Shown piece after piece: positions 12,404 to 56,723 of a DNA stretch of 64,000 nt. Under the pieces are notes generated by a model, which worked only from the letters and a program-made list of their open reading frames with translations, was not told where the DNA came from and made no database searches. The stretch covers positions 62,001 through 126,000 of the forward strand of contig WRAQ01000003.1 in the NCBI GenBank assembly GCA_009780115.1. Reading direction: 5' to 3'. The DNA is from Lachnospiraceae bacterium. Its GTDB lineage: Bacteria; Bacillota; Clostridia; Lachnospirales; Lachnospiraceae. Every line of letters starts with the position of its first letter. Position 1 is the stretch's first letter. Both the position numbers and the translations under genes were made by a program.

Positions 12404-12440
12404 TCTTTTATTATAATTACCTATCAAAAAAAATGCAACC

Positions 12441-12496
12441 GTGTAAATCCTTGGGAGGATGCAAGATTCTTTAAATGCGTCGCTGCCGGGCAACGC
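12441..12496 (-). repeat. Family B palindromic element, copy B1
   Basis: On the minus strand GCGTTGC pairs with GCGACGC around CCGGCA, then GGATTTACAC matches the end of the other copies. The second hairpin is eroded. Read in the same frame as the other two copies it gives LPGSDAFKESCIL. It lies between sigG and the metallopeptidase gene. Confidence 0.65.
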
Positions 12497-12500
12497 TATC

Positions 12501-13280
12501 TCACGCCGTCAAATATCCTTTCATTACCCGCAGCGCATTCTTTTCAAGCCGTGAAACTTGAGCCTGCGAGATTCCAACAATTTCCGCAACCTCCATCTGT
12601 GTTTTCCCTTTAAAAAACCGTAAGTCTATAATTTCATTTTCGCGTTCCCCAAGATGTTTCATTGCTTCGCTTAATGATATGTGTTCGACCCATGTTTCTT
12701 CTTTATTCTTCTTGTCGCTGATTTGATCCATGACATACAATGTATCACCACCATCGGTATAAATCGGCTCATAAAGGCTCATTGGATTTTGGATGGCATC
12801 AAGGGCATAAACTATATCTTCTTTTGATATCCCGATTTCTTCGGCAATTTCAGTTAGGGTCGGCTCTTTTAAGTTTCGTTTGACCATATTTTCTTTGGCA
12901 TAAATAGCTTTGTAAGCGGTATCTTTTAGCGAGCGGCTAACCCGGATTGCATTATTATCACGCAAAAAGCGGCGGATTTCCCCAATTATCATCGGGACCG
13001 CGTAGGTTGAAAACTTTACATTTAAAGTCGAGTCAAAGTTGTCGATTGCCTTAATCAAACCAATACAGCCGATTTGGAAAAGGTCATCAACGTTTTCATT
13101 GCTGGAGGAAAAGCGTTTAATCACACTTAAAACGAGCCGCAAATTGCCTTCTATATATTGTTTTCTCGCATCCAAATCTCCTTCTTCTATCCGCGAAAAA
13201 AGTGCTTCTTTTTCGGCTGGCTTAAGTAAAGGCAATTTTGCTGTATTTACCCCACATATTTCTACTTTTCCTTGTGCCAT
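12501..13280 (-). CDS. sigG: RNA polymerase sigma factor SigG (late forespore)
   Basis: 259 residues. The N-terminus KVEICGVNTAKLPLL is diagnostic of SigG. Region 2 includes NGNLRLVLSVI-like YIEGNLRLVLSVIKRF, DLFQIGCIGLIKAIDNFD and KFSTYAVPMIIGEIRRFLRD; region 4 ends QMEVAEIVGISQAQVSRLEK. SigG directs forespore transcription after engulfment (SASPs, germination proteins). It is normally next to sigE; here ylmC and an anion permease gene lie between. AAAGG is 13 nt from the ATG, a loose spacing. Confidence 0.97.
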   Translation of the reverse strand: MAQGKVEICGVNTAKLPLLKPAEKEALFSRIEEGDLDARKQYIEGNLRLVLSVIKRFSSSNENVDDLFQIGCIGLIKAIDNFDSTLNVKFSTYAVPMIIGEIRRFLRDNNAIRVSRSLKDTAYKAIYAKENMVKRNLKEPTLTEIAEEIGISKEDIVYALDAIQNPMSLYEPIYTDGGDTLYVMDQISDKKNKEETWVEHISLSEAMKHLGERENEIIDLRFFKGKTQMEVAEIVGISQAQVSRLEKNALRVMKGYLTA

Positions 13281-13394: not shown

Positions 13395-13419
13395 TAAGTT
13401 TATTATAATTATATACTCC

Positions 13420-13536
13420 GTAAGTTAGATTAAAGTATATCTCTTCGTCTCTACGGCCTAATTGATGTAAAATACAAGTTTTATCCCGGGAAGAAGGCGG
13501 CCTAAGGTTCCTGCGAGATATCTTTATCTAACTTAC
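13420..13536 (-). repeat. Family A structured repeat, copy A2
   Basis: The arms GTAAGTTAGAT...ATATCTC and GAGATAT...ATCTAACTTAC are complementary apart from small bulges, with sequence different from the TCAGGTAA type. The core CGGCCTAATTG...GGGAAGAAGGCGGCCTAAGG is intact. With the terminator at 13357-13394 it fills the 308-bp gap between permease and sigG. Confidence 0.88.
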
Positions 13537-13588
13537 TCCTACTATAGCATTACAATTACTTTTTAATCAAGAAATATTAGCCGCCTTA

Positions 13589-15404: not shown

Positions 15405-16148
15405 TCACCCTTCCTTCATCAACTCTTTCTTTAAACGTTTCATAATCTTTTTTTCCAACCGCGAGATATAAGACTGCGAGATGCCAAGGAGCTGGGCTAC
15501 TTCTTTTTGGGTCATCTCATTGCCGTCCGGTGTGCCAAGCCCGAAACGCAGGTTAATAATCGTCTGTTCCCGTTCCGAAAGCTTACGGATTGCCTTAAGC
15601 AAAAGCTTACGTTCCACCTCATTTTCAATATCTTTATATATGACATCTTCGTCAGTGCCAAGAATATCCGATAAAAGAAGTTCATTTCCATCCCAATCGA
15701 CATTTAACGGCTCATCAATTGATACTTCCAGTTTAGTTTTGTTATTGCGCCGCAGATACATCAATATTTCATTTTCAATACAACGTGAAGCGTAAGTTGC
15801 AAGTTTGATATTTTTGGTCGGATTGAAAGTATTAATTGATTTAATTAACCCAATCGTACCGATGGAAATCAAATCTTCAACCCCAACCCCTGTATTGTCA
15901 AACTTCTTGGCAATATAAACCACCAGGCGCAAATTGTGTTCTATTAAAAGTGATTTGGCTTCCTTTTCATATTCGGTACCAAGATCATTAATGACAGCAT
16001 TTTCTTTGTCAAGCTCCAAGGGCGGGGGCAGAACCTCGGTACCACCGATATAGTGGATATCCCCCTGCTGCTTGATTACCCTGAAACCCATGTCTTTCCG
16101 ATAAAGTTTAAACTTAACCTTTCCCGGGATTGCAATTTTAAAAACCAT
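15405..16148 (-). CDS. sigE: RNA polymerase sigma factor SigE (early mother cell)
   Basis: 247 residues including a ~25-30-residue pro-sequence before the conserved [13 protein letters not shown], where SpoIIGA cleavage activates pro-SigE. Region 2 has [32 protein letters not shown] and [19 protein letters not shown]; region 4 ends [17 protein letters not shown]. SigE runs early mother-cell gene expression. AAGGAG lies 6 nt before the ATG. It lies 19 bp behind spoIIGA, its activating protease, the standard spoIIG operon arrangement. Confidence 0.98.
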
Positions 16149-16167: not shown

Positions 16168-17040
16168 TTATTTGCAGTTATGTAAATCCTTTAAGGAGAA
16201 CGCTTGCGTTCTCTTGGAAGTGTCGCCGCCGGGCGACACTTTTTTAAATAGCTGCGGATTTAAAATCATCTGATATTTACCGCTGCCGGATATTTTTCCC
16301 GGCCCAACCGCAACGATTACATTTTCATATCTTACTTTCTGCCCTGACTTTTCAATATAAATCTCTGAAATCTCATATCCTATCATCATACCGTGGGCAT
16401 TCCCGATATTGTGGTACGGGATGGCCTTCGTTTTTTCCGGTTTCATTAAAGGTTTTAGTTCTTGCCATACTGCTTCTTCAAGGATAGTTACCGGTTTTCC
16501 GTTGACTGGTTCAGTCAATCCGTTGCCCGTATCTACTAATGCCGTTACTTCTATCTCTTTTCCCTCACAAGGGATAAAAACTATAAGAAAAACATTTTCC
16601 TGATTGCGGTGATGTAGTTTCAAAAAATAATCACTTAGGGCAAAAACTGTATAACCTAAAACCAGAACTAACCAAACTTTATCCGAGTGTAAACCGAAAA
16701 CAGTTATTTGGCGCTGTAAAAACAGGATTACTGCCCCGGTTAAAAAGGCATATATAAATAAAAATCCGGTTTGGCGCAGAATATTTTTTATTCCTTGTGA
16801 CTTAAATGTGAGCTTTATCATGAGTAAACTTACAGGAACCAGGCCGATAAATACTTTCACCGGATATGTAACCGGCAGGGGCAGGGCTAAGCAGTATCCT
16901 AAAGCTCCGAAAACCCCGCCGGCCAAAATTCGTAATTTGGTTGCGGAAAGCTTTAAAGTCCTTGCCGTCAGAATTAAGATGAAAATATTGAGAACTAGGT
17001 TGATGATAAAAACTTTTCCGATATCGATTTCAAAAATCAT
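16168..17040 (-). CDS. spoIIGA: Sporulation sigma-E factor-processing peptidase SpoIIGA
   Basis: 290 residues from the ATG at 17040 ([18 protein letters not shown]). Five hydrophobic segments fill the N-terminal half; the C-terminal half is the aspartic protease domain with the DTGN site ([18 protein letters not shown]). It sits in the septal membrane and cleaves pro-SigE. The final ~24 residues ([20 protein letters not shown]...) are encoded by family B element B2 and do not look like a normal SpoIIGA end. It is directly upstream of sigE. Confidence 0.95.
16180..16241 (-). repeat. Family B palindromic element, copy B2, inside spoIIGA
   Basis: On the minus strand AAGTGTCGCC pairs perfectly with GGCGACACTT (10 bp), and GAGAACGC with GCGTTCTC. 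Translated in frame it makes the SpoIIGA tail [18 protein letters not shown]. The same frame and a similar peptide are found in copy B3. Confidence 0.8.
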
Positions 17041-17231
17041 ATCTTTTCGCTCTCTGTTAAGGGCTGCTGAATGTGCTAGTTTCGTTACACTTGGCGACAC
17101 TTAAGATTCATTCTTAATGCAGTGCTTGTTTCCTCATGTTTTTCATTATATACATTAACTTGTTCAGAATTTGTCAAACCTTAGGCTGGTATCGCCGTTA
17201 TTTATCGCAGGTAATCGACAGGGGCGGGGAC

Positions 17232-17262: not shown

Positions 17263-17281
17263 GTTACTATGAATCCTATAC

Positions 17282-17343
17282 GTCAGGTTAATATATCTCT
17301 CCGTCACTGCGGCCTAAGGTTCCTGCGAGATATATTACCTGAC
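17282..17343 (-). repeat. Family A structured repeat, copy A3 (core-deleted)
   Basis: The arms GTCAGGTTAATATATCTC and GAGATATATTACCTGAC pair almost fully. Only one CGGCCTAA motif remains: the sequence jumps from CACTGCGGCCTAA directly to GGTTCCTGCGAGA, as expected from deletion between the two direct repeats of the core. Confidence 0.85.
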
Positions 17344-21765: not shown

Positions 21766-21843
21766 AAGGATGCCCTCCTTATAATTTCCTATCTAATAAG
21801 TACAGATTACGTGCTGCCCTGCATAGCATAGTTACGCACTCTA

Positions 21844-21956
21844 ACAATCCTAAAACATTCAAAATCCGCCCTATCGGGCTACTATCTCATGTTTTTTGGG
21901 TTTCAATGTCATGTTTTTTTATACAAGCATGAAACACATGACCTTTTGACCCTAGT
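21844..21956 (-). repeat. Family D structured leader element, copy D1 (before ftsZ)
   Basis: It shares with D2 the blocks ACAATCCTAAAA, ATTCAAA, ATCCGCCCTATCGGGCT, CATGTTTTTT and AAGCATGAAACACATGAC. GCCC/GGGC form a hairpin with loop TATC; GTCATG/CATGAC close a second with outer GGGT/ACCC. It lies between ftsQ stop and ftsZ start. Confidence 0.78.
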
Positions 21957-22031
21957 ATAATAATATAATTAAATCAAAAATTTAGCAACTACAAATTTGA
22001 TAAATTTTTCAAAAATCAACCGATTTTCTTC

Positions 22032-22805: not shown

Positions 22806-22821
22806 ATTCTTTGTTTCCGGC

Positions 22822-22837
22822 ACCTATGGATTGCTGC
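22822..22837 (-). repeat. 16-nt leader motif shared with the SH3-protein gene
   Basis: ACCTATGGATTGCTGC is identical to 2493-2508. Here it lies at the 5' end of ftsQ and next to element D2; GGATTG (plus-strand 22828-) can pair with CAATCC (22872-) to form a stem containing the small hairpin GGAATC-AAA-GATTCC. Confidence 0.5.
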
Positions 22838-22870
22838 GTGTATATGGAATCAAAGATTCCTTTGCAATAT

Positions 22871-22985
22871 CACAATCCTAAAAAATTCAAATCCGCCCTA
22901 TCGGGCTGCTTTTTCATTTTTTGCGGACCCCAAAATCATGTTTTTTCATGCAAGCATGAAACACATGACTTTGGCCCTGGTGTCT
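22871..22985 (-). repeat. Family D structured leader element, copy D2 (before ftsQ)
   Basis: Same block order as D1. Here TCATG...CATGA closes a hairpin with inner TTTCATG/CATGAAA, and outer CCAAA/TTTGG replaces the GGGT/ACCC of D1, so pairing is kept with different bases. It runs from the murA stop codon toward ftsQ. Confidence 0.78.
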
Positions 22986-24338: not shown

Positions 24339-24419
24339 GTAAGTCAGATAAAGTATCTCTCCGTCTTTACGGCCTAATCGATATAAATTAAAAATTTCAT
24401 CTCGGGAAGAAGGCGGCCT
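24339..24419 (-). repeat. Family A structured repeat, copy A4 (half copy)
   Basis: One arm GTAAGTCAGATAAAGTATCTC (first 20 nt quoted: GTAAGTCAGATAAAGTATCT) and the core to GGCGGCCT are present. The second arm is missing: the sequence runs straight into the end of ftsW, whose TGA stop begins at the junction. Confidence 0.8.
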
Positions 24420-27905: not shown

Positions 27906-27957
27906 AAATAAATTACTCCTTTAAATAACAAATAATGAATTGGCTTGGGTTTTCTCC

Positions 27958-28070
27958 GTAAGTCAGGTAATAAACTCTCTCCGTCACGACGGCCTAATTG
28001 GTTTACCCGTTAAGTCTTATTTCGGGAAGAAGGCGGCCTAAGGTTCCTGCGAGATGTTTTTACCTGACTT
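27958..28070 (-). repeat. Family A structured repeat, copy A5
   Basis: The arms GTAAGTCAGGTAA and TTACCTGACTT pair, and the stem extends through AAAC/GTTT and CTC/GAG. CCGTCACGACGG can form an inner hairpin. Both CGGCCTAA motifs are present. It lies between the spoVD-like gene and mraY. Confidence 0.9.
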
Positions 28071-28138
28071 CCTCCTGGAATCCAGCAATAAACTCTTCAT
28101 CATTCTAAATTATACATGACATCTATACTTAAAACAAC

Positions 28139-32728: not shown

Positions 32729-33676
32729 CTATAAACTCTTCATACTTTTCTCGAAAATGCGTAATTTCGCGCTTTTTGCCCTTTTGTTGTTTTCAAGTTC
32801 TAAAGAGCTTGCTTTGACTGGTTTTCCGGTAATCATCTTTCCCCTACTTTCGTTTCCACAGATACACACCGGAAAATTGGATGGGCAGGTGCAAGGGTTT
32901 TCAGTATTTTTGAAAATAGTTTTTACAATTCTATCTTCCAGTGAATGAAAGGTTATTATGGCTAACCTTCCGCCCGGTTTCAGTAAATCTATCAGTTCAT
33001 CCAAAGTTTCTTTTAAGATTGATAATTCGCGGTTACACTCAATTCTAATTGCTTGAAAAGTACGTTTTGAAGGATGGCCGCCTTCCGCCCGCATTCTTGC
33101 CGGTATCGCCCCCCTGATAATATCATTTAAGCGGCCGGTCGTTTCAATCGGGGCTATTCCTCTTTCTCTTGCGATATGTTTGGCGATGTTCTTTGCAAAT
33201 TTATCTTCGCCGTAATCGCGGATAACCCGGTATAAATCCATTTCACTATAGTCATTAATTATTTCTTTTGCACTTAGTGTTTTGCGCCTATCCATCCGCA
33301 TATCAAGAGCGGTATCGGTATTGTAGGAAAATCCCCGTTCCGGCTGGTCAAGCTGATATGATGAAACACCTAGGTCAAGAACCATTCCGTCGATTGCGTT
33401 GATATTTAATTCTGCTAAAACATTTTTTGTATTTTCATAATTATCACGGATAATTTTTACTTTTTCACCAAACTCCGCAAGATGCGCGGTTGCGGCTCTA
33501 ATCGCATCTTCATCTTGGTCAATTCCGATTAACAAGCCTTTATCATCAAGCCCTTTCGCTATCTCATAGGCATGGCCGCCGCCGCCTAAGGTACCATCGA
33601 CATATATTCCGTCCGGATTTATTGTTAATCCGGCAATCGTTTCATCTAATAATACCGATGTATGGGCAAAGTTCAT
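32729..33676 (-). CDS. rsmH: 16S rRNA m4C1402 methyltransferase
   Basis: 315 residues (former MraW). It N4-methylates C1402 of 16S rRNA with [13 protein letters not shown] at the start, [10 protein letters not shown] as SAM motif, [19 protein letters not shown]-like [11 protein letters not shown], and [10 protein letters not shown] near the end. GTAGGAATAAAA precedes the ATG. It sits between mraZ and ftsL as in nearly all dcw clusters. Confidence 0.98.
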
Positions 33677-34353: not shown

Positions 34354-35817
34354 TTAGTACACCACCCCAATCTCAAGATAAACCGGAAGCGCCACCCGGT
34401 AAACCATCCATAAAAGGCAGCTAATAATAAAAAGACAAGCCATAATAACCCCGGCCCCCTTCCATCGTTCCGGTATCCATTTCAGCGCGGTTATTTTTTC
34501 AAAACCAGCCGTCACATAATACATCAGCGGAATGATTCCCGGAAGCAAATACCGGCCTTGCGCTTGATAATCAGTACTGTAAGCATAATAAATTAATAGG
34601 ATAAGCGGAAGAATTGCACAAAAAATCATATTAAGATGAAAGAAGAAAATTTTCCCCTTAAATGAACTAACTACTTTATCCCCTTTTTTAATTAGAAAAT
34701 AAGCAAGAATACCAACCGCAAGAAAAGTCAAATACAAACGGTATAGCCATATATTAGCAAAAATTGCCAGCGAACCATATCCGGCAACAAATGAATTAAA
34801 AGTCATGCTAAAAAAATCATTCATCTTAAGCATCTGCCAAATAGTAAAACCTTTTGCTTGATAAGTATCCATGTAATTAGGGTTGCCATACAAGACCGCC
34901 ATTTTATCCCGGGTCTCAAACCCGATGATATCACCGTCATACAGAAAGAAACTCCGGACAAACCACCAGCCAATCCCCAAGAGGACTATCCCGCTGATAA
35001 TGCTTCCTTTTATCAGCATATTTTTCCAGTCATAGCGTAACTTGCCCCTGTCTTCATTTAACAGAAAATTGTTGTGGTGTGAATCATTTAATGAGAATTG
35101 CAAAGCAGTTCTTTTAGAAGTGCCGCTGCCGGGCGGCATTTCTTTTTCCAGAAAACTGCTAAGAAATAATAAAATACTGCTTAAGATAAATCCATACGCA
35201 TTATAATAAGATAAAGCACAAATGATGATACCGCCGCTTAAAAAAATAATACTCCGGCGATTGTACCCCTCTTGATAAATCAAAACCCAAGCGTAACAAA
35301 TCATTGCCGACGAAAGTAGGGCAAACGAATCGGTATTAATATAGGTGTGGGTAAACAGGCTTTGCGGAAGAAACATTATCAGAAAACAAAAAAGCCAGCG
35401 CATACGCTGCTCGTAAAAAAGCCTGTTTGCCAGTTTGTAAACAATGATTGCCATCAAGGTACCGGATAAGATATTTATGAACCGCCCCGCATACAATAAA
35501 GCTAATTCTGAGGTGGTAAAAAAATTGACAAGGCGCATGAAATAGCCTTGGATAATATAGGGTAGGACATTATAAAAAGCATAAGAAAAACCGTACCCTT
35601 CCAAGCGGATTTCTTCTTCAAAACCGGTTGGGATAACCCCATATTCACAGATATAGCGGGGGATTAAATACTTTGCATGTTCATCGGGCGGATTTCCATA
35701 TAGGGGCGGACTATCAAAATGGGGTTGAAAAAATGCCAGCGTGCCGGCTACGATTAAGAAAATACTAATATAAAATAAAAAAAGCGGTTTTTCAGAGAAC
35801 TTTAGTTCTTTACGCAT
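34354..35817 (-). CDS. Polytopic membrane protein, DUF2142/GT39-like
   Basis: 487 residues, about 11 membrane helices. The first loop has PPDEHAKYLIPRYICEYGVIP, like the acidic-pair motif of DUF2142 and related lipid-linked sugar transferases (ArnT/PMT clan). A role in moving a sugar from a polyprenyl carrier to wall or surface polymer is inferred from the clan. Residues ~226-247 (MPPGSGTSKRTALQFSLNDS) are encoded by family B element B3 and interrupt a loop between helices. Confidence 0.65.
   Translation of the reverse strand: MRKELKFSEKPLFLFYISIFLIVAGTLAFFQPHFDSPPLYGNPPDEHAKYLIPRYICEYGVIPTGFEEEIRLEGYGFSYAFYNVLPYIIQGYFMRLVNFFTTSELALLYAGRFINILSGTLMAIIVYKLANRLFYEQRMRWLFCFLIMFLPQSLFTHTYINTDSFALLSSAMICYAWVLIYQEGYNRRSIIFLSGGIIICALSYYNAYGFILSSILLFLSSFLEKEMPPGSGTSKRTALQFSLNDSHHNNFLLNEDRGKLRYDWKNMLIKGSIISGIVLLGIGWWFVRSFFLYDGDIIGFETRDKMAVLYGNPNYMDTYQAKGFTIWQMLKMNDFFSMTFNSFVAGYGSLAIFANIWLYRLYLTFLAVGILAYFLIKKGDKVVSSFKGKIFFFHLNMIFCAILPLILLIYYAYSTDYQAQGRYLLPGIIPLMYYVTAGFEKITALKWIPERWKGAGVIMACLFIISCLLWMVYRVALPVYLEIGVVY
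35077..35142 (-). repeat. Family B palindromic element, copy B3, inside a reading frame
   Basis: On the plus strand GAAGTGCCGC pairs with GCGGCATTTC (one G-T), and GAATTGC region pairs with GCAGTTCT (one wobble). It is in frame within the DUF2142-like gene and is read in the same phase as B2, giving PPGSGTSKRTALQFSLND. Confidence 0.8.
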
Positions 35818-35924
35818 ATTTAATTTATAAACTATTTACTCAAGTTATGCAACTGCTTGTGGACATTTGCCTTAAAAAAGCGTAAGATAATGTTACTATC
35901 CATGGCTCACTATTCTGCATAGAA

Positions 35925-36028
35925 AGACAAACAAAAACATCTCGCAGGAGCATTAGGCCGCCTTCTTCCCGGGATAAAACCTTAATGGGAGCCAATTAGG
36001 CCGTAGCACCGAAGAGAGTTTATTGTCT
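35925..36028 (+). repeat. Family A structured repeat, copy A6 (reversed, upstream of a plus gene)
   Basis: Orientation is opposite to all other core-bearing copies. The arms AGACAAACAAAAACATCTC and GAGAGTTTATTGTCT pair. Core TTAGGCCGCCTTCTTCCCG and TTAGGCCG are present. It is the main content of the 289-bp divergent gap 35818-36106. Confidence 0.88.
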
Positions 36029-36106
36029 GGCTTATTAAGTAGAATAATAGTTGTGAATAGCAACAAGATAATCAGTATATAAACCAAAGAAAGGCGGGTT
36101 ATTTAA

Positions 36107-40714: not shown

Positions 40715-40755
40715 ATGGGAGCCTTTCTGTCTATTAAATATTATTATTTATAACC

Positions 40756-40870
40756 GTAAGGAAGATAAAGCTATCTCTCCGCCGCTACGGCCTAATTGAT
40801 GTAAAATAAAAGTTGTCTCTCGGGAAGAAGGCGGCCTAAGGTTCCTGCGAGATAGCTTTATCTTCCTTAC
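40756..40870 (-). repeat. Family A structured repeat, copy A7 (perfect 22-bp arms)
   Basis: The arms begin GTAAGGAAGATAAAGC and end GCTTTATCTTCCTTAC; over 22 nt they are exactly complementary. The arm sequence differs at many positions from A5 and A9, yet every change is matched on the other side. The core is intact. Located between rsgA and ychF. Confidence 0.93.
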
Positions 40871-40914
40871 TGTTATCAGTATCTCTTAAAAGCTTTTAAC
40901 TCTTCATGCAGCTA

Positions 40915-48910: not shown

Positions 48911-48966
48911 TATATATACATTGCTCCAATCATGTTATTATTTATATTTCAATGCTATTTTGATAA

Positions 48967-49081
48967 GCAAGTCAGGCAATAAACACTCTCCGTCACTACG
49001 GCCTAATAGATGTAAAATATAAATTATTTCTTAGGAAAAAGGCGGCCTAAGGTTCCTGCGAGTTGTTTTTGCCTGACTTGC
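48967..49081 (-). repeat. Family A structured repeat, copy A8
   Basis: The arms GCAAGTCAGGCAATAAACA and GTTTTTGCCTGACTTGC pair. Compared with A5/A9, GGTAA/TTACC becomes GGCAA/TTGCC and GTAAG/CTTAC becomes GCAAG/CTTGC, both compensatory. The core is slightly changed (TTAGGAAAAAGGCGG). Confidence 0.9.
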
Positions 49082-49111
49082 TTGCTAACTTAATGACATT
49101 GATTGATTAGT

Positions 49112-56551: not shown

Positions 56552-56588
56552 AATGGTCTCCTCTCTAATTTCAGAGGTCATTTACTAC

Positions 56589-56703
56589 GTAAGTCAGGTA
56601 ATAAATTCTCTCCGTCACTATGGCCTAATTGGTGTAAAATATAATTTTTCTCCGGGGAAGAAGGCGGCCTAAGGTTCCTGCGAGATGTTTTTACCTGACT
56701 TAC
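56589..56703 (-). repeat. Family A structured repeat, copy A9
   Basis: The arms GTAAGTCAGGTAA and TTACCTGACTTAC are exact complements over 13 bp, and the stem continues with small bulges to CTC/GAG. The core is intact. Located between recJ and the PfkB gene. Confidence 0.9.
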
Positions 56704-56723
56704 TCATTATCTGCCATCAGGTA

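Follow-up and report, generated by a model that had tools for sequence, protein, structure and literature searches.

In Rickettsia, small palindromic elements (RPEs) that are restricted to the genus lie between genes and also in frame within genes for unrelated conserved proteins, where they encode a recognisable peptide (PMC2229807, PMC10969869). RPEs are 105-146 bp long and their terminal inverted repeats form one long stem-loop (PMC2229807); gmk, the only host tested, keeps its activity (PMC2229807, PMC10969869). According to a review, in-frame palindromic insertion is unusually frequent in Rickettsia, and whether proteins evolve in a similar way elsewhere was left open (PMC10969869). ERIC and the short form of Correia also fuse in frame with genes (PMC2229807). 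REPs are extragenic and carry a GTAG or CGTC tag at one end (PMC3733652). SPRITE of Streptococcus pneumoniae is a long AT-rich single stem, present in ~30 copies and enriched between convergent genes (PMC3049150).

The window, which is the whole 64-kb stretch of DNA that was analysed, contains copies of a palindromic repeat that has spread within one genus (Table 1). An earlier note on this DNA had described three copies with two hairpins, at 12441, 16180 and 35077. All three are present, but only two of them fold: the 16180 copy (z -6.6 against shuffles) and the 35077 copy (z -3.8) each form two hairpins, while the 12441 copy is decayed and folds no better than shuffled sequence (z -0.12). 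The best score of the covariance model (R1) elsewhere in the window is 16 bits, to be compared with the three scores in Table 1, and the core GTGYCGCYGCCGGGC occurs three times in the window where 0.25 occurrences are expected. As the note had claimed, two of the copies lie in frame and in the same phase, and encode related peptides; Pfam confirms both hosts as SpoIIGA and a DUF2142 protein. The spoIIGA copy is placed in the 3’ end of the gene between the codons for ..LF and the native stop, and the next gene, which runs in the same direction and encodes a sigE-like factor, starts ~25 bases past it. The DUF2142 copy encodes the block ..SFLE-KEMPPGSGTSKRTALQFSLNDSHHN. The decayed copy follows the stop of the sigG-like gene, whose congener orthologue is 96% identical over the searched stretch and ends at the same codon without an element. 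This is the commonest position genome-wide, the in-frame copies being a minority (11/75). The earlier note had overlooked this main niche immediately after native stops, and also how strictly the copies are oriented.

Table 1. Positions of the repeat, its host genes and associated features; coordinates are those of the window unless a locus or contig handle is given.
Feature	Position	Strand	Evidence
Element copy in spoIIGA	16173..16245	- (sense = minus strand)	R1, 90.9 bits
Hairpin 2 of spoIIGA copy, AAGTGTCGCC-GCCG-GGCGACACTT	16218..16241	.	sequence, fold, covariation
Hairpin 1 of spoIIGA copy, GAGAACG-CTTG-CGTTCTC	16196..16213	.	sequence, fold, covariation
spoIIGA, sporulation sigma-E processing protease (host gene)	16168..17100	-	Pfam PF03419 (Peptidase_U4), E=6.9e-54
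spoIIGA stop codon	16168-16170	-	
sigE-like sporulation sigma factor gene	15405..16148	-	ORF list, context
Element copy in frame within DUF2142 gene	35070..35145	-	R1, 73.2 bits
DUF2142 membrane protein gene (host)	34354..35817	-	Pfam PF09913, E=1.7e-11
Decayed element copy adjoining sigG stop	12434..12501	-	R1, 50.5 bits; stop TGA 12501-12503
sigG-like sporulation sigma factor gene, upstream of decayed copy	12501..13280	-	ORF list
~137-base repeat, copies	13401-13537, 17279-17336, 24339-24419, 27937-28073, 35921-36046 (reverse), 40735-40871, 48946-49082, 56568-56704		
~137-base repeat, partial copies	1134-1190, 33581-33608		
Element copies with a palindrome in the hairpin 1 loop	L121:3091, L107:14210, L084:2636, L086:2919, L115:7692, L106:3066, L094:7015, L104:3082		
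Paired element copies	L114:2256-2413, L087:2791-2956, L106:7732-7926; G005 C40:14307-14477		

On its sense (S) strand the element is laid out as TA-AAAAAGTG(hairpin 2)TTCTAAGA(hairpin 1)CTCCTTAAATGATTTAC..TTGCAATTTCCTA. In the window copies, hairpin 2 is GC-rich and hairpin 1 is shorter, with the form GAGAANN..NNTTCTC; on the plus strand, TTTT directly follows hairpin 2 of the spoIIGA copy. The observation in the earlier note that the stem bases differ and still pair is borne out by covariation. Among the 15 copies from which R1 was built, both sides of a pair are changed in 36 cells, compared with 12 in shuffles, and structures slid out of register lose the signal; among 77 copies the counts are 209 and 68, in an alignment that is fitted to the model. 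Hairpin 2 occurs in several variants (GTGTCGCC.., CTGACACC.. and TTGATGCC..), and four copies carry GCGAGCTTGCTCGC or a close relative. No terminal inverted repeats were found, as the ends TAAAAAAG.. and TATAGGAAATTGC.. match only in TA.

In the own genome (3.08 Mb), R1 finds 70 matches at E<=0.01 and 87 at E<=1, where the E-values are rough; the matches are 67-97 bases long, up to 116 with nested inserts. The possibility raised in the earlier note that the genome holds no more copies is thus disproved, with ~70 to 85 copies present, including 11 that lie in frame within unrelated host genes. Among 40 relatives, matches are confined to congeners (11 in G005, 5 in G002 and 3 weak ones in G003), and the 35 relatives from other genera gave none. 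A search of 291 genomes of the class with stricter filters returned only the own genome (0/290 others), no Rfam family reaches its gathering threshold at the copies, and a scan for the exact pattern across 84,980 species hit only 11 times, singly and in unrelated taxa but never in Rickettsia; we read these hits as chance. G003 contains eight copies of an 83-base relative, bounded on the left by TAAAAAA and on the right mostly by ..CCTATAGAATAAAAA, with TAAAAA on both flanks of the young copies; seven of the eight are 95-100% identical, indicating recent spread. One copy, L114:2256-2330, is orthologous to G005 C21:28528-28603 (L066, L148) and follows the same gene end in both species. Both arms of hairpin 2 have changed together between these two, GTGGCGCG..CGCGCCAC in one and GCGTCGCC..GGCGACGC in the other, and the stem is still perfect.

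The element resembles the RPEs in being small, palindromic and genus-restricted, and in lying between genes as well as in frame in unrelated conserved protein genes (11 copies within ORFs) with a recognisable peptide. It differs in its size (~75-83 bp), its two independent hairpins and its main niche behind stops. We did not file it as an RPE because it has neither the 105-146 bp size nor one long stem formed by terminal inverted repeats, a comparison made by description and not with RPE sequences. The likeness to the Rickettsia elements proposed in the earlier note therefore holds for the mode of working and not for membership. Its remark that no such element is known from Clostridia agrees with our searches of open-licence papers, which found no in-frame palindromic elements in that class. 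Hairpin 2 with its T-tract is similar in kind to the SPRITE stem, again by description and not by sequence: both have a hairpin with a T-rich tract and AAAA/TTTT ends, both lie near gene 3’ ends and no target duplication is established for either (PMC3049150). Unlike SPRITE, the element has a GC-rich hairpin 2 accompanied by hairpin 1, is for the most part placed between same-direction genes and turned opposite to a terminator, and has in-frame copies. REPs and BIMEs with their RAYT (Y1) transposase are also palindromic, numerous, partly modular or tandem, and in some cases near stops (PMC12306157), but the own genome has no Y1 transposase and the GTAG/CGTC tag is absent from the element consensus. 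MITEs of the ERIC, Correia/NEMIS and RUP type are likewise small and non-autonomous with TA at their ends, but possess terminal inverted repeats, and the own genome lacks DDE_3.

The 11 copies within ORFs add ~25 amino acids each, as variants of a peptide that includes ..QFSLNDSHN; the phase of entry is the same in eight of them, and the later ..FSLNDSHN-like stretch is present in most. In all 11, the S strand is the coding strand. We compared the host proteins with those of the congener G005, whose SpoIIGA is 69% identical, leaving out a Wzy-like copy. The block is absent from the G005 orthologues of SpoIIGA, a GT2 enzyme, GlpK, the DUF2142 protein, a GH39 enzyme, a HemN-like protein and a GDSL protein, so that at least seven copies have clean empty orthologues, while the comparison is less clear at the Lhr-like, YlbJ-like and L100:4710 sites. 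The alternative that the SpoIIGA peptide is an old family-wide tail was refuted, as the orthologues of three congeners end in ..NPQMLIK*, ..LINNLP* and ..HPDLV*, none with the element peptide. Glycerol kinase (GlpK) is the clearest case: its congener orthologue is 80% identical without the block, and in an alignment with the solved E. coli GlpK ~30 query residues (309-338) stand opposite 3 chain residues (297-299). An AlphaFold2 model of GlpK with the insert, made from a two-sequence alignment, was uninformative (mean pLDDT 30.8). These sequence comparisons show the in-frame blocks to be insertions and not ancestral parts of the host proteins. In addition, a few genes, named from sequence and including NusB-like and AroA-like ones, run into the element and stop there, which gives each protein a short new tail.

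Most copies start directly behind the native stop codon of a gene, genes being defined here by their ORFs and not by a gene finder. Between same-direction gene pairs, 20 of the 26 intergenic copies start at the stop, where uniform placement in the gap would give 2.6; counting TA positions only, the figures are 18 of 23 and 6.65. G005 follows the same pattern, with 5 of its 10 readable copies abutting the stop of a long gene. Because in 27 of the 31 stop-abutting cases the orthologue in the congener terminates at precisely that codon, nearly always without the element, the stop is native, and we rejected the idea that genes are cut short by a stop that the element supplies. The own stop is TAA in 23/31 of these cases, compared with 17 in the congener, and at eight sites a TAA corresponds to TAG or TGA in the congener. 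At 23/31 sites the congener lacks the A-run behind the stop, implying that in most cases the element brought the A-tract with it, and a T stands directly before the A-run in nearly every copy, whether in genes, at stops or elsewhere. Reading frames alone do not account for the orientation. The idea that the orientation follows from a single open frame was rejected because more copies have an open frame on the opposite (A) strand (57/75) than on the S strand (45/75).

We think it probable that the element is a non-autonomous palindromic repeat that was formerly, and perhaps still is, mobile, and that insertion at TA followed by selection sets its distribution. The element would insert via a TA-containing target, its A-tract end being joined to the TA. 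If it landed in S orientation on the TA of a stop codon TAA or TAG, its first base would rebuild TAA, leaving the upstream protein unchanged. In the opposite orientation the stop codon would be destroyed and the hairpin with its T-tract, now terminator-like, would face transcription, so that such insertions would mostly be lost by selection. The remaining distribution would follow from tolerance, either between operon genes or in frame where the block is accepted; since one frame of the S strand is often free of stops, some insertions within genes could be tolerated as ~25-residue blocks. None of the young G003 copies lies at the stop of a long ORF, which suggests, in a small sample of a different subfamily, that the stop-abutting copies are what selection leaves and not what insertion aims at. 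Against this reading count the six own stops at abutting copies that are TGA, where healing through TA is not directly applicable, and the terminator scan, which did not call the window copies. Moreover, the excess at stops over the TA prediction means that TA plus tolerance may fall short of a full account. The empty sites all come from another species, and thus the exact junctions and a target duplication are not proved.

The mobilising enzyme is probably missing or foreign. In the own genome, which is 96% complete, there is no match to the Y1 transposase (PF01797), to which 5 of 14 control genomes have a match, and none to DDE_3 of the IS630-type transposases or to the RVT_1 reverse transcriptase domain. 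Mobilisation by IS200/IS605 or RAYT was accordingly rejected for want of a Y1 domain, and by an IS630-type enzyme for want of DDE_3.

The clustering at stops could instead mean that the copies serve a function in the cell, as intercistronic RNA hairpins kept behind stops for mRNA stability or translation, with the in-frame copies as side effects. A role of this kind has been suggested for stop-proximal REPs of E. coli, and REPs <=15 bases from stops are reported to stall ribosomes (PMC12306157), which would suit functional hairpins, as would the stop clustering (20/26), the compensatory changes that keep both hairpins paired and the exchange of both bases of stem pairs in the L114:2256 copy shared with G005. 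However, there is almost no positional conservation, as nearly all compared congener sites are empty; the family is absent outside the genus; and copies lie within enzymes. We consider this explanation rather unlikely. The same clustering might also reflect insertion that is itself aimed at gene ends, by a machinery whose cue is the stop codon, or else a ribosome or transcript at termination, and not a DNA word. The exact-codon placement even at TGA and TAG stops (L103, L106:3066, L102, L115:7692), the stop use above the TA prediction and the occurrence of the same rule in the second species argue for such targeting, but the near-identical G003 copies, being young and away from long-ORF stops, point to later selection, and 11 copies lie inside genes. 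We also know of no enzyme that targets stop codons or terminating ribosomes in such a way, which speaks against it. Gene-end targeting is improbable, and the form in which insertion by such sensing also occurs in a fixed orientation is very improbable. If true, stop-sensing insertion would mean that a bacterial mobile element chooses its target in a new way.

Two further explanations start from the terminator-like half of the element, and we hold both to be extremely doubtful. Ordinary intrinsic terminators might have become alike by convergence, given that hairpin 2 and the T-tract lie on one strand and that some copies stand behind genes of the T-tract strand (e.g., L138 and L107:5338). Convergence is hard to reconcile with 75 bases of common sequence that include the spacer and hairpin 1, with a T-tract that is mostly on the strand opposite the host gene, within operons and genes, and with window copies that the terminator scan passed over. 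Retroposition, in which the terminator-ended strand of a small RNA is reverse-transcribed with priming on genomic A-tracts, was attractive because the element resembles a small RNA with a U-tract end; the T-tract end is always at an A-rich junction, and A-tracts are already present in some of the empty congener sites. It was largely refuted by the congener sites without an A-run behind the stop (23/31) and by the missing RVT_1 domain.

The repeat is a second, independent case of in-frame palindromic insertion, in a free-living sporulating lineage. One sibling species holds the empty sites and another holds near-identical, recently spread copies, which makes it testable how short repeats move and whether enzymes merely tolerate the added blocks or make use of them. 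For a small element, sitting exactly behind a native stop, with a junction able to rebuild TAA, is a simple way to stay harmless.

We also observed further palindromes, such as GCGAACTCAGCGAAGCTGAGTTTTGC and AAATCCATGCTTCGCAAGGATTGCAGC, within the hairpin 1 loop of some copies (Table 1). Similar units occur outside the element as well, which suggests nested palindromic families. Some copies are paired at a distance of ~85-120 bases, like short tandem arrays, with a joiner of the form ..TTTCCTATA(n)TAAAAAAG... At L155 of G005, where the orthologue of the L134 gene ends, the stop is followed by a lone hairpin, TAAAAAATGGTCGTCCTGCGGAGACCATTT, without hairpin 1; the own genome has a full element in this place. 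The window contains, in addition, a second dispersed repeat of ~137 bases with the cores CTCTCCGTCACTACGGCCTAATTGATG and GGGAAGAAGGCGGCCTAAGGTTCCTGCGAGAT, which is intergenic there and matches no Rfam family at gathering thresholds. Two Clostridiales-1 RNAs (RF01699) lie ~1 kb apart on the minus strand, at 21817-21960 and 22818-22985.
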